DNA from: Chitinophagaceae bacterium
GTDB lineage: Bacteria; Bacteroidota; Bacteroidia; Chitinophagales; Chitinophagaceae
Assembly: GCA_947454235.1 (NCBI GenBank)
Contig: CANGIY010000015.1
Coordinates: 1 to 64,000 of the forward strand
DNA: 64,000 nt
Direction: 5' to 3'
A program made the translations under genes and the position numbers. The notes under the pieces are model-generated. The model was not told the origin of the DNA and searched no databases. It saw nothing but the letters and a program-made list of their open reading frames with translations. The stretch's first letter is position 1. Every line of letters begins with the position of its first letter. Below are positions 57,422 to 61,081 of this stretch, one piece after another.

Positions 57422-59620
57422 TTACAGCATTTTTTCGAGTGCTGTATCGTATGCTTCTTTCCAATCGTTGAGGTAACCCCAGCTTTCGTTGTCAATCAAA
57501 ATATCCTTGGTTGCGTTTACATTACCAATGCGGCGGTGTGGCAAGCCCTTCAATTCTGCTTCAAACAAATGCTTTAAGTCAGGGTTTACTGTAACTACAA
57601 TCCTGCTTTGAGATTCACCAAATAAATACGCGTCTTTACGCATGTTTTCCATCGTAGCAACTGTAAAGCCTAAGCCGCTCGCCATTCCGCTTTCCAACAA
57701 AGTGGTGAACAAACCACCTTCTGAAACGTCGTGTGCTGACTTGATGAGTTTGTTGTTGATGAGGCGCAATACAGTTTGTTGCAATTGGAACTCGTCGTCT
57801 AAATCGAAGTGCGGTGCAGGTGAATGTGTTTCGCCCACTATGTGGTGCAGGTATTCAGAACAGTTAAAATCTTCTTTTTCATGACCTAACACATAAATGC
57901 AATCGCCAGAGTGCTTGAAGCCAAGCGTCATTTTTTGGTCGAGGTTGTCTAATACACCCACCATACCAATGGTTGGCGTTGGGTACACAGGTCCGTCTTC
58001 GCTTTGGTTGTAGAAACTTACGTTACCACCAGTTACCGGCGTATCGAGCTTGCGACATGCCTCACCCATACCTGTAATAGCATGAACAAACTGATAGTAT
58101 ACTTCAGGGTTGTAAGGGTTACCAAAATTCAGGCAGTTGGTAATTGCCACCGGCACACCACCCGAACAAACAATGTTCCTCGCAGCCTCGCTCACGGCAA
58201 TCATACCACCTTTGTAAGGGTCGGCCCATACGTAGCGGCTATTACAATCGGTAGTCACAGCCAAACCTTTTTGAGTACCATGCACCCTAATTACAGCAGC
58301 ATCGCTGGCACTGTTGGTTTGGGTATTTCCTGTACCTACCATGCTATCGTATTGCTCCCAAATCCAACGTTTAGATGCAATGTTTGGTAGCTGAACCAGT
58401 TGCCAAGCCACCTCTTTAAGGTCGTTAGGCTGAGGTACTTTATTTGGATCGAAAGCAGCAATAGTTTTGAAATATTGCGGCTCGGTATATTCTCTTTTAT
58501 AAACAGGAGCGCCACCGCCCAGTACAAGGCTTTCAGCAGGCACATCAGCTACCATTTCGCCATCTTTGAAGTATTTCAATCTGCCATCGCCTGTTACCTC
58601 ACCTATCTGCACGCAGTGGATATCCCACTTAGTAAAGATGTCCTCAATCACTTTCTCCATGCCTTTTTTCACCACAATCAGCATACGCTCCTGGCTTTCG
58701 CTCAGCAGCATTTCCCATGCTTTCATGTTGTTTTGGCGTGTAGGTACTTTGTCAAGGTCAATAATCATACCATGCTCGCCCTTGGCACTCATTTCACTGG
58801 TGCTGCAAGTAATACCCGCTGCACCCATATCCTGCATACCAATTACTGCACCTGTAGGTATCACTTCAAGGCATGCTTCCAATAATTTCTTTTCTTCGAA
58901 TGGGTCACCCACCTGAACTGCAGGCAATTGCTCAACACTGTTCTCGCTGATATCAGCAGAAGCGAATGACGCACCGCCAATACCATCTTTACCGGTCGCA
59001 GCACCAACAATGAACACCGGATTGCCAACGCCATGTGAAGTTGCAGAAACAGTCTGGCCTTTTTTAACAACACCAACGCTCATTGCGTTTACAAGCGGGT
59101 TGGTTTGATAGCAGCTTTCGTAGTACACCTCACCAGCTACAGTAGGCACACCGAAGCAGTTTCCGTAGTGACCAATGCCCTTTACAACACCTTTAATGAG
59201 CCAGCGTGTTTTAGGGTTATCTACTTTACCAAACCTCAAAGAGTTGAGTGAAGCGATTGGGCGTGCGCCCATTGTAAAAATATCTCTGTGGATACCACCT
59301 ACACCGGTAGCTGCACCTTGGAAAGGCTCAATCGCCGACGGGTGGTTATGGCTTTCAATCTTGAAAACACAACCTAGGTCATCACCAATATCAATGAGAC
59401 CGGCATTTTCATCACCTGCTTTCACCAATACCCTACTGCCGTCGCGAGGGAGTGTTTTCAACCAGGTGATTGAGTTTTTATAGCTACAGTGTTCGCTCCA
59501 CATCACCGAATACATTGCGGTTTCGGTAAAGTTGGGTGTGCGCCCCAGTATTTCTTTTATCTTTTCGAATTCTTCTTCTCTGAGTCCAAGTTTTACTGCT
59601 TGTTCAAGTGTTGCTGCCAT
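57422..59620 (-). CDS. purL: phosphoribosylformylglycinamidine synthase (PurL)
   Basis: PurL uses glutamine-derived ammonia, ATP and FGAR to make FGAM in purine synthesis. The 732-residue size shows the small type that works with separate PurS and PurQ; neither gene is adjacent. Visible motifs are SEHCSYKNS, ESHNHPSAIEPFQGAATGVGGI, MGARPIA, GMQDMGAAGITCSTSEMS and GNTQTNSASDAAVIRVHGT. A perfect -7 box ends only 4 nt before the ATG, so the mRNA looks leaderless. Confidence 0.96.
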   Translation of the reverse strand: MAATLEQAVKLGLREEEFEKIKEILGRTPNFTETAMYSVMWSEHCSYKNSITWLKTLPRDGSRVLVKAGDENAGLIDIGDDLGCVFKIESHNHPSAIEPFQGAATGVGGIHRDIFTMGARPIASLNSLRFGKVDNPKTRWLIKGVVKGIGHYGNCFGVPTVAGEVYYESCYQTNPLVNAMSVGVVKKGQTVSATSHGVGNPVFIVGAATGKDGIGGASFASADISENSVEQLPAVQVGDPFEEKKLLEACLEVIPTGAVIGMQDMGAAGITCSTSEMSAKGEHGMIIDLDKVPTRQNNMKAWEMLLSESQERMLIVVKKGMEKVIEDIFTKWDIHCVQIGEVTGDGRLKYFKDGEMVADVPAESLVLGGGAPVYKREYTEPQYFKTIAAFDPNKVPQPNDLKEVAWQLVQLPNIASKRWIWEQYDSMVGTGNTQTNSASDAAVIRVHGTQKGLAVTTDCNSRYVWADPYKGGMIAVSEAARNIVCSGGVPVAITNCLNFGNPYNPEVYYQFVHAITGMGEACRKLDTPVTGGNVSFYNQSEDGPVYPTPTIGMVGVLDNLDQKMTLGFKHSGDCIYVLGHEKEDFNCSEYLHHIVGETHSPAPHFDLDDEFQLQQTVLRLINNKLIKSAHDVSEGGLFTTLLESGMASGLGFTVATMENMRKDAYLFGESQSRIVVTVNPDLKHLFEAELKGLPHRRIGNVNATKDILIDNESWGYLNDWKEAYDTALEKML

Positions 59621-59632: not shown

Positions 59633-59685
59633 GGAATTTTTTTGAGGGGTATATGACCTATAATGGAATCAAAACTGAAAGTCTG

Positions 59686-59723
59686 AATCAGAATTCACAG
59701 AATTTCAGAATTCACAGAATTTT
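59686..59723 (+). repeat. left terminal inverted repeat
   Basis: Starts aatcagaattcacagaattt and matches the reverse complement of 60166-60203 at 31 of 38 positions. It contains an exact tandem 17-mer, tcagaattcacagaatt, at 59688-59704 and 59705-59721. Confidence 0.7.
59688..59721 (+). repeat. exact 17-bp tandem repeat
   Basis: Two adjacent, identical copies of tcagaattcacagaatt, inside the left inverted repeat. The right repeat has a decayed form of the same structure. Confidence 0.85.
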
Positions 59724-59760
59724 TTGACATTAATGATGGCTGAATTACACGACAGAATTA

Positions 59761-60132
59761 TCATTTAGCACCTTTGAAAATTAGCTTGTGCTCCAAACTG
59801 TTTCCTCCAAAATTGACTAATAGTCCAACAGGTAAGTTATAAGCTGTAAGGTAATTCTTTGTTTGTGCAATGTGAGCCGGCAATAGTTCAATAACAGCTT
59901 TCAGCTCCACGATAATTCTCCCATCAACAATGAAATCAACCCGCCTCGAACCCACTAATACCCCCTCGTAAAAAATATCCTGTTCAACCTCACGTTTAAA
60001 ACCCAATTGTGCCTGAGCAAATTCTATCGCTAAACAACGTTGATAAATTACCTCCTGAAACCCGTTTCCAAGTTTACTGTGTACTTTCATAGCACACCCG
60101 ATGATTTTATATGTTATGGGGTCAAAATTCAA
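59761..60132 (-). CDS. GxxExxY protein (PD-(D/E)XK_3 family)
   Basis: A 123-residue small nuclease-fold protein of the GxxExxY family. The signature GFQEVIY is at residues 24-30, followed by a PD-(D/E)XK-like set: the Asp of RVDFIVDG and ELK of IIVELKAVIELL, then QTKNYLTAYNLPVGLLVNFG. The frame starts at TTG 60130-60132; there is no ATG upstream before a stop codon. The whole gene lies between inverted repeats, suggesting it is carried by a small mobile element. Its biological role is unknown. Confidence 0.85.
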   Translation of the reverse strand: MNFDPITYKIIGCAMKVHSKLGNGFQEVIYQRCLAIEFAQAQLGFKREVEQDIFYEGVLVGSRRVDFIVDGRIIVELKAVIELLPAHIAQTKNYLTAYNLPVGLLVNFGGNSLEHKLIFKGAK

Positions 60133-60165
60133 ATTGCCTTTGTAAATTTCTACTCTATTTCAACG

Positions 60166-60203
60166 AAAATTCGGAAAATTCTAAAATTCTGCAAATTTTG
60201 ATT
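60166..60203 (-). repeat. right terminal inverted repeat
   Basis: On the minus strand it starts aatcaaaatttgcagaattt and matches the left repeat at 31 of 38 positions. Its outermost base is the last base of the stop codon of the gene at 60203-61081. Confidence 0.7.
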
Positions 60204-61081
60204 TAGTCCTTTTTCACCTTAATCAATGCCAATTCATTTTTCTTATTGAACGCCTTTACGGGGTGTTTGATAGTGCCGTCGAATAAATTGAGGTTGGCGG
60301 TGTTGGGAGGGTCAGATCCTTCATTTTCAGCTTTGATAATGATGGTGTGTACCTGATTATCGGGTAGTGCAATTTTGATGCGCTTTGGGGTGGGAGTTAT
60401 GGTGTACTGCGTCAGCACATATTTTTTATCGAAGCCAATGCTCACAATGTCTCCGTCAAATCCGCCACCATCCCAAACATCTATCACAACTGTATCAGAA
60501 TTCCATGTGTAGGAAACGTCGGTACCCGCGGTAATCTTGGCTTGTTGTTCTTCTGCTTTCTTCTCTTCAACAACCGGTTCAGGCTCTTTAGGTGCCTGCT
60601 TTTTGCGCGCACTACCCATCGACACTTCAACGTCGTACTTATCATGCGAAGAAAATAATGACTGTAATTGACTGGCATTGGAGAATGTAAGCACACCAGG
60701 CGTACACGCTGTATTATCAATTTCTGCGCTCTTTGCTTTTCCTGTGAGCACATTATCTGTCATTTCCAGCGATGCATTTAGCAGACACATAAATGCCTGT
60801 GTGTGCACATCGTGCGAGGAAAGGATTTCCGTCTCTTTAAACTTGATTTTCTTTTTTTCTTTATCAATGGTGCCTCTTATAACCACCTTCGTAGCAACAG
60901 CGGTGTCGTAGGTGTAGCTTACCCCGGTTAGTATACCAAAAGAGTCTTTGGCAATAATTTTATAGGGGAACTCTTCACCCGTTTCCATTTTTAGTTTGCC
61001 AGATAAATAGATATCGGCAACCTGAGCCCTTCCGCACAAGGGGCTAAGAAACACACAACAAAAAATAATAAAATACTTCAT
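60203..61081 (-). CDS. secreted protein with Bacteroidota-type C-terminal beta domain
   Basis: A 292-residue exported protein (signal peptide MKYFIIFCCVFLSPLCGRAQ). The middle part has a charged Pro/Glu/Lys linker (KKQAPKEPEPVVEEKK, residues about 158-180). The C-terminal 95 residues (VVIDVWDGGGFDGDIVSIGFDKKYVL ... DGTI) resemble a beta domain I have seen repeatedly in secreted Bacteroidota proteins, but I know no family name. The stop codon overlaps the end of the mobile unit. A -7 box ends 19 nt before the ATG. Confidence 0.8.
   Translation of the reverse strand: MKYFIIFCCVFLSPLCGRAQVADIYLSGKLKMETGEEFPYKIIAKDSFGILTGVSYTYDTAVATKVVIRGTIDKEKKKIKFKETEILSSHDVHTQAFMCLLNASLEMTDNVLTGKAKSAEIDNTACTPGVLTFSNASQLQSLFSSHDKYDVEVSMGSARKKQAPKEPEPVVEEKKAEEQQAKITAGTDVSYTWNSDTVVIDVWDGGGFDGDIVSIGFDKKYVLTQYTITPTPKRIKIALPDNQVHTIIIKAENEGSDPPNTANLNLFDGTIKHPVKAFNKKNELALIKVKKD

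Follow-up and report, generated by a model that had tools for sequence, protein, structure and literature searches.

In the window, the 64-kb stretch of DNA analyzed here, a lone GxxExxY gene and the sequences on either side of it look like a real and recurrent single-gene inverted-repeat element of a little-studied kind, a minimal mobile or once-mobile unit, as judged from sequence comparisons. Very probably, the unit is a single-gene element of about 530 bp, reaching roughly from 59680 to 60207, in which the gene is flanked by two inverted arms of about 42 nt (Table 1). The explanation that we prefer as a whole, a single-gene inverted-arm element together with the mechanism set out below, has in our estimate slightly the better of an even chance. 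If gene and arms form one element, a role open to testing could be assigned to a common family, found in 106 of 148 sampled genomes of the order, and a large set of intergenic repeats that now lack an explanation could be ascribed to an owner; bacteria would also possess a way of spreading repeats that relies on a restriction-like nuclease and not on a transposase.

Anatomy of the unit in the window

An earlier, sequence-only reading of this DNA had described imperfect inverted repeats of 38 bp. The best ungapped inverted match, 59686-59723 against 60166-60203, indeed has 31 of 38 positions identical, and the true outer ends lie slightly beyond it, with AGTCTGAATC starting at 59680 and, on the minus strand, ACTAAATC starting at 60207. 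The exact 17-bp tandem repeat reported for the left arm was found again, as was its decayed counterpart in the right arm (TRF 60165-60201, period 9, 79% matches); the high-coordinate arm is the more decayed of the two. Each arm has a terminus at its outer end, here TCTGAATC/CTAAATC, and continues inward with about four quasi-repeats, whose variable letters are common to both arms of one element. A transposase was sought within the unit, and none was found, in agreement with the earlier reading.

Among 3,000 random pairs of segments with the same geometry, four scored at least the observed 54, all four being the element itself, and 2,000 shufflings of the two flanks gave a top score of 44, compared with the observed 54. 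When both strands of the 64-kb window were scanned for a third arm with the arm consensus (at least 26 of 40 letters), only the two arms of the unit were detected.

The GxxExxY gene, the 292-aa gene, and purL are all on the minus strand. The TAA stop codon of the 292-aa neighbor (60203-60205) lies inside the right arm end, in the position that TGA takes in the usual terminus, TC-TGA-ATC. When eight orthologs of this neighbor were compared by eye, their tails were seen to stop at about the same place. Thus, the unit is located at the very end of that gene.

Table 1. Coordinates of the putative element and the adjoining genes in the window
Feature	Position	Strand	Description
GxxExxY gene	59761..60132	-	123 aa, TTG start; PD-(D/E)XK nuclease family by profile match
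Arm 3' of gene, low-coordinate side	59680..59723	+	outer end AGTCTGAATC; dialect CAGAATT; consensus match 37/40
Exact 17-bp tandem repeat TCAGAATTCACAGAATT x2, within low-coordinate arm	59688..59721	+	copies 59688-59704 and 59705-59721
Arm 5' of gene, high-coordinate side, inverted	60166..60207	-	outer end ACTAAATC; CAGAATT dialect; consensus match 34/40
Upstream neighbor gene	60203..61081	-	292 aa, no Pfam match; stop TAA within arm terminus
Downstream neighbor purL	57422..59620	-	start about 60 nt from unit

The GxxExxY protein

The product had been read as a PD-(D/E)XK-like GxxExxY protein, and profile searches bear this out, with matches above cut-off to TIGR04256 (133.1 bits, cut-off 35, 5.6e-39) and PF13366 (PDDEXK_3; 127.9 bits, cut-off 22, 3.1e-37) and with the D...ExK residues in place. 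E27, D66, E76, and K78 are conserved in the protein and invariant among 11 sequences. An AlphaFold2 model based on 38 sequences reached a pLDDT of 94.6. Foldseek returned four matches to it at E <= 0.001 (best E 4.6e-05), all to SSO0001, which we take to be a Cas4 protein; with a TM-score of about 0.55 to the query and an rmsd of about 12, only the fold class is taken from this match. Matches above E 0.001 comprised exonucleases, a Cas4-family protein, and R2 retrotransposon endonucleases. The solved structures S100 and OppF, retrieved by sequence at E 0.1 or worse, were treated as chance.

The gene is the sole PF13366 match in its 4.17-Mb genome. GxxExxY genes were present in 26 of 39 genomes in the search of relatives, in which 7 partial matches out of 60 were left out, and in 106 of the 148 genomes sampled from the order. 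The phages searched gave no match, and matches occurred in 8 of the 72,556 plasmid records searched.

The GxxExxY protein is under strong purifying selection, with a dN/dS of about 0.08 between genomes G056 and G083 (dN 0.013, dS 0.154) and of about 0.1 between loci L353 and L355, the latter at a dS close to saturation. Selection of this strength, together with vertical inheritance in two genera and a weak Cas4b match of the window's protein in PADLOC (E 0.0033), would suit a domesticated nuclease with a function in repair or defense, flanked by ordinary regulatory palindromes and devoid of mobility. We nevertheless consider this alternative unlikely: as described in the following sections, gene-less copies are dispersed, the interiors of the gene-less pairs of one genome (G014) are related, the terminus occurs in several phyla, and different occupants were found at one junction.

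Layout and arm dialects at other GxxExxY loci

At many loci, the two arms resemble each other more than they resemble the arms of other loci. Over 106 loci, the median arm score was 33 for own pairs versus 18 for foreign pairs, and the score was above the foreign 95% line at 54 loci and above the 99% line at 21, compared with 1.6% and 0.3% of 322 control open reading frames (ORFs). In a set of 150 loci, 84 and 46 exceeded the two lines, and own arms outscored all 40 foreign partners at 65 loci, where 3.7 were expected; the 66 loci that did not exceed the 95% line count against our preferred explanation. Loci with flanks of up to 100 nt were excluded from these sets (106 of 108 and 150 of 153 used), and L042, with a flank of N, had been dropped before the counts.

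The decanucleotide TGTCTGAAYC, matched at 8 of 10 letters or better, was found in both flanks of 55 of the 106 loci and in one or both flanks of 78; a control with shuffled upstream flanks gave 9 of 106. Among the named loci, which are the best 80 of 561 matches and therefore close to the window's protein, 51 of 79 have it in at least one flank at 9/10 or better. At 9/10, it was found at 16 of 50 GxxExxY loci of relatives, at 2 of 20 in the g55/g75 set, which has other types of arms, and at 1 of 29 loci of four-helix-bundle genes from the search set of the relatives. Among the loci compared, the terminus goes with the GxxExxY subfamily of the window and is rare outside it. The layout occurs across phyla, and by record title the loci with a 9/10 terminus include Fibrobacterota, Chloroflexota, Ignavibacteria, Calditrichia, Poribacteria, and Latescibacteria.

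By eye, the flanks of GxxExxY loci form inverted quasi-tandem arrays, the letters of which vary by locus; the dialects seen were CACAGATT, CGCAAAGA, CACAGAGGA, CAGGATT, CATGATT, and CAGAATT. In G017, G019, and G020, GxxExxY genes of one genome differ in dialect, yet each is matched between its own arms (by eye), which is at odds with a single enzyme that has a single fixed site. In a Mantel test over 60 loci, protein and arm identity were correlated (r=0.295, 0 of 999 permutations); cross-phylum pairs, without permutation, gave 0.20. Protein similarity predicts arm similarity, and joint descent of gene and arms would fit this as well as recognition would. Unusually long matching arms, of about 167 nt, flank a GxxExxY gene in Spirosoma oryzae (L165), and in Bacteroides finegoldii (L331, NZ_OY725952.1) such a gene with CACAGAGGA arms lies between radA and the gene of an FAD-dependent protein.

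Arms without a gene

Arm copies without the gene occur both in the window's own genome and in its relatives. The sequence-only reading had set against mobility the prospect of arms without further copies around a gene that keeps its place among relatives; the arms do recur, and the position of the genes varies. In the own genome, the arm pattern GAATTNNCAGAATTNCAGAAT gave 26 matches with at most three mismatches, including the two in the window, and 14 of these had at most two, versus none for the reversed pattern; the terminus pattern gave 25 matches versus 1 in the control. Fifteen stretches of this genome, out of the 26 pattern matches, were scanned for arms, which yielded 14 arms at 12 places besides the window, each sharing at least 26 of 40 letters with the consensus. 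Arms in both orientations were confined to the window stretch, and the gene-less copies in the scanned stretches are single arms. Elsewhere in the own genome, two divergent Y1 transposase genes (L387 at C5:154359 and L388 at C35:2069) have inverted repeats of their own (L388: AAGCGTCTCGCTTC), and the only four-helix-bundle match (L228 at C4:88277) lies beside a different tandem repeat (GAGAAAGGGAGCGGTGAGCGAGAG...).

In the 148 genomes of the order, terminus matches averaged 3.78 in gene-bearing versus 1.10 in gene-less genomes (Mann-Whitney p=0.007), with 0.34 and 0.31, respectively, for the reversed control, and at least four matches were found in 27 of 106 gene-bearing versus 3 of 42 gene-less genomes. 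The median was 1 for gene-bearing and gene-less genomes alike, which counts against our preferred explanation.

Could the arms belong to another enzyme? Y1_Tnp genes were present in all 17 genomes searched, the own genome included, and a RAYT/Y1 transposase might act on the arms in trans, with GxxExxY as a passenger. However, none of the 11 Y1 genes examined out of 75 matches, the own genome's two among them, had the terminus at 9/10 or better in its flanks, several of them carry hairpin repeats of their own, and the arm type follows the GxxExxY protein; ownership by a RAYT/Y1 transposase thus appears quite improbable.

Gene-less inverted pairs of 107 to 171 bp with this type of terminus were found, among the matches listed, in three genomes; six were examined in G014, six in G043, and one in G154. 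Comparison of the two arms of a pair over their first 40 nt gave 18 to 38 matching positions, and the perfect match at the outer end extended over 0 to 26 nt. In G014, the pairs have related interiors (median score 49 versus 14 between genomes), and the six of them (L229-L234) share an inner hairpin around GTCGTTCA...GAACGAC, as expected of copies of one master. The G043 interiors are unrelated (median score 13 versus 14 between genomes), so these pairs are not simple copies of one master. These gene-less pairs, in G014 apparently copies of one sequence, and the occurrence of the layout across phyla make the case for a mobile unit stronger than the sequence-only reading had put it. Around the G043 gene at C21, a complete inverted pair in the window's dialect was seen on either side (by eye). 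Counting against our preferred explanation, the G014 pairs are, by eye, unlike the arms of the two GxxExxY genes of that genome. At two sites of CAGAATT pairs in G043, other sequence was seen in sister species (L281, L288, L269, L271, and L275 compared with L249 and L250), and one of the two counterpart sites is palindromic (by eye).

Filled and empty junctions

A unit of about 500 bp separates a tRNA-nucleotidyltransferase-like gene from miaA in G132, while in G126 the two genes overlap at ATGA with no unit between them; miaA was named from Pfam IPPT, and the tRNA nucleotidyltransferase match is below cut-off (21.7 versus 27 bits). At L351, the filled miaA junction, the ExK lysine reads Q, and thus this copy may be inactive.

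A second junction is of parE-parC type, named from the Pfam gyrase-B C-terminus and topoisomerase-A, by which parE/parC are not separable from gyrB/gyrA. It is empty in G070, G048, and G129, where one continuous match runs across it; in G078, G104, G126, and G147 the genes are side by side with 70 to 125 nt extra. In all five sampled species of genus g75 it is filled, in four by a GxxExxY gene and in one, G085, by a DUF559 gene (PF04480, 93 bits). The DUF559 gene (L383, about 1901-2463) sits in inverted arms of another kind (CAAATCCCCCTAGCCCCCTTTCTAAAGGGGGAATT; by eye). The four GxxExxY proteins at this junction are mutually closest among 154 compared (62 to 74% identity) and hence probably stem from one old insertion. 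The arms of these units differ among the four species, having changed on both sides (by eye); a single recognition site, fixed across the genome, does not account for this.

Orthologous arms that differ between four species, yet match each other within each unit, could be produced by quasi-palindrome correction, which together with slippage would make neighboring sequences alike and turn the arms into a mutational artifact. The artifact appears very improbable, considering the terminus shared across several phyla, the 400 to 500 nt between the arms, the dispersed copies, and the control genes, which are without the effect.

Vertical inheritance and past mobility

Seven sites are common to the sister species G056, G083, and G090 by descent, namely, L289/L296/L305, L291/L298, L292/L297, and L293/L304 and, from spacing, L295, L299, and L303; the count excludes L290, L294, L301, and L302. 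A gene-bearing unit of G083 in the window's dialect is conserved in G056 (97.5% over 2 kb). Many copies are thus vertically inherited, and vertical inheritance is apparent in two genera. At the counterparts of a single-arm site of G083 (L300, C10), in G056:C51 and G090:C176, the flanks are the same but enclose 4.2 and 2.5 kb of different DNA.

Searches for empty sites with the joined flanks of six G043 pairs in five genomes, and for eight loci of G056, G083, and G090 in four genomes, gave no junction at nucleotide resolution. The 292-aa neighbor of the window's unit was found in all 11 genomes of the genus, the own genome included, and the stretches examined at the best 292-aa-gene loci of 10 relatives contained neither purL nor GxxExxY. 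No clear target duplication was seen by eye in the flanks of 13 gene-less pairs or at the L339/L351 junction; divergence blurs the ends.

The proposal of a small mobile unit, made from the window alone, therefore holds in part. Gene-less arms, differing gene positions, and filled as well as empty junctions support it, and past mobility of the unit is likely; present movement finds no support, the seven sister-species sites being shared by descent.

Proposed mechanism

In our preferred explanation, the unit would insert at the 3' end of a gene and be expressed by read-through. The arms, in the form of a duplex, hairpin, or cruciform, would be what the nuclease recognizes and cuts, and repair after cutting would copy or homogenize the arms, in cis and in trans. 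REPIN/RAYT systems are mostly vertically inherited, and, as said of them, spread would be rare, with most copies now passed on by descent. Whether the GxxExxY protein itself acts on the arms is nearly an even question, to which our answer leans slightly toward no; the mobilization of the unit by its own nuclease, as the sequence-only reading had suggested, is something that we infer.

A broader and rather doubtful view, though one that we do not think far-fetched, is that a widespread class of repeat elements, as yet without a name, has GxxExxY proteins as its enzymes, each recognizing its own arms and driving their copying and homogenization, as a PD-(D/E)XK counterpart of REPIN-RAYT. Parallel classes with arms of their own would then be formed by DUF559 and by four-helix-bundle genes, in competition for the same intergenic sites.

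Of 111 upstream neighbors ending within 250 nt, 102 share the strand of the unit and 9 are on the opposite one, compared with 167 and 40 of 207 in the controls (p=0.009); the test covered 127 loci, 16 of them without a neighbor ending within that distance, at ORF thresholds of 80 and 100 codons. This excess fits expression by read-through. It likewise speaks for an alternative in which the unit is an IVS-like RNA element, whose transcript arms pair and are cut by RNase III, as in the IVS of 23S rRNA, the protein being incidental. The anatomy is as in the Coxiella IVS in the excerpts of PMC4990558, and four-helix-bundle genes have inverted arms here too, 16 of 29 outscoring all foreign partners where 1 was expected (29 of 30 loci used, the 30 being those among the matches listed). 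Against such an RNA element, stem mismatches are without a clear sense-strand G-U preference (153 versus 127, p=0.07), and the five Rfam matches obtained for eight loci were all below gathering scores; we do not think it likely.

Comparison with known systems

The sequence-only reading knew of no described system of this form, and none was found in the literature searched either, from which subscription papers were excluded, so that absence is not proven. Excerpts of this literature mention GxxExxY in passing only. It yielded no stated function of GxxExxY genes, nothing on PDDEXK_3, nothing on DUF559 with inverted repeats, and no paper joining at least two of DUF559, GxxExxY, four helix bundle protein, and 23S rRNA-intervening sequence.

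With MITEs and insertion sequences, the unit shares the existence of gene-less forms with termini like those of the gene-bearing one, and the G014 pairs have their interior in common. It differs in the unrelated G043 interiors, in the lack of a known transposase, and in that no target duplication was seen.

The 23S rRNA intervening sequence (IVS), too, holds a small ORF between terminal inverted repeats and contains short tandem repeats; according to excerpts of PMC4990558, the Coxiella IVS has 28-bp terminal inverted repeats and heptamer repeats ahead of its ORF. However, the window's unit lies outside rRNA, between the 292-aa gene and purL, its ORF is GxxExxY and not S23p/four-helix-bundle, and four-helix-bundle units here seldom have the GxxExxY terminus (1 of 29). 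The TIGR02436 four-helix-bundle genes at L085-L114 are flanked by inverted quasi-tandem arms that follow a different grammar (ACTTATAACTTAC, AGTATTAAGTAC, ATTATTCATT); those at L085, L087, L091, L098, and L101, in different genera and with different arms, sit before what is, by eye, apparently the same conserved gene.

In anatomy, the unit appears closest to REPtrons and TIRtrons, both defined in the excerpts of PMC3733652, and it would work most like a REPtron or TIRtron with a PD-(D/E)XK nuclease instead of the transposase; because its enzyme differs, it is not a member of either. TIRtrons, as these excerpts have it, also hold a gene within long terminal inverted repeats, and their repeats occur as dimers and clusters, but their enzyme is a RAYT tyrosine transposase, of which there is none here, and the terminus TGTCTGAAYC is common across phyla. 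The likeness to REPtrons and REPIN-RAYT systems lies in a single small nuclease gene between inverted repeats, in dispersed single copies (own genome) and inverted pairs without a gene (G014, G043, and G154), and in largely vertical inheritance, described for REPIN/RAYT systems in excerpts of PMC8049555. Their GTAG or CGTC tag, as defined in the excerpts of PMC3733652, where CGTC repeats are apparently without a dedicated transposase, was not seen in the arm ends read by eye, which are TGTCTGAAYC-like. Instead of an HUH/Y1 RAYT transposase, the element encodes a PD-(D/E)XK GxxExxY protein, and its arms are arrays of quasi-repeats, the dialect of which varies between elements of one genome.
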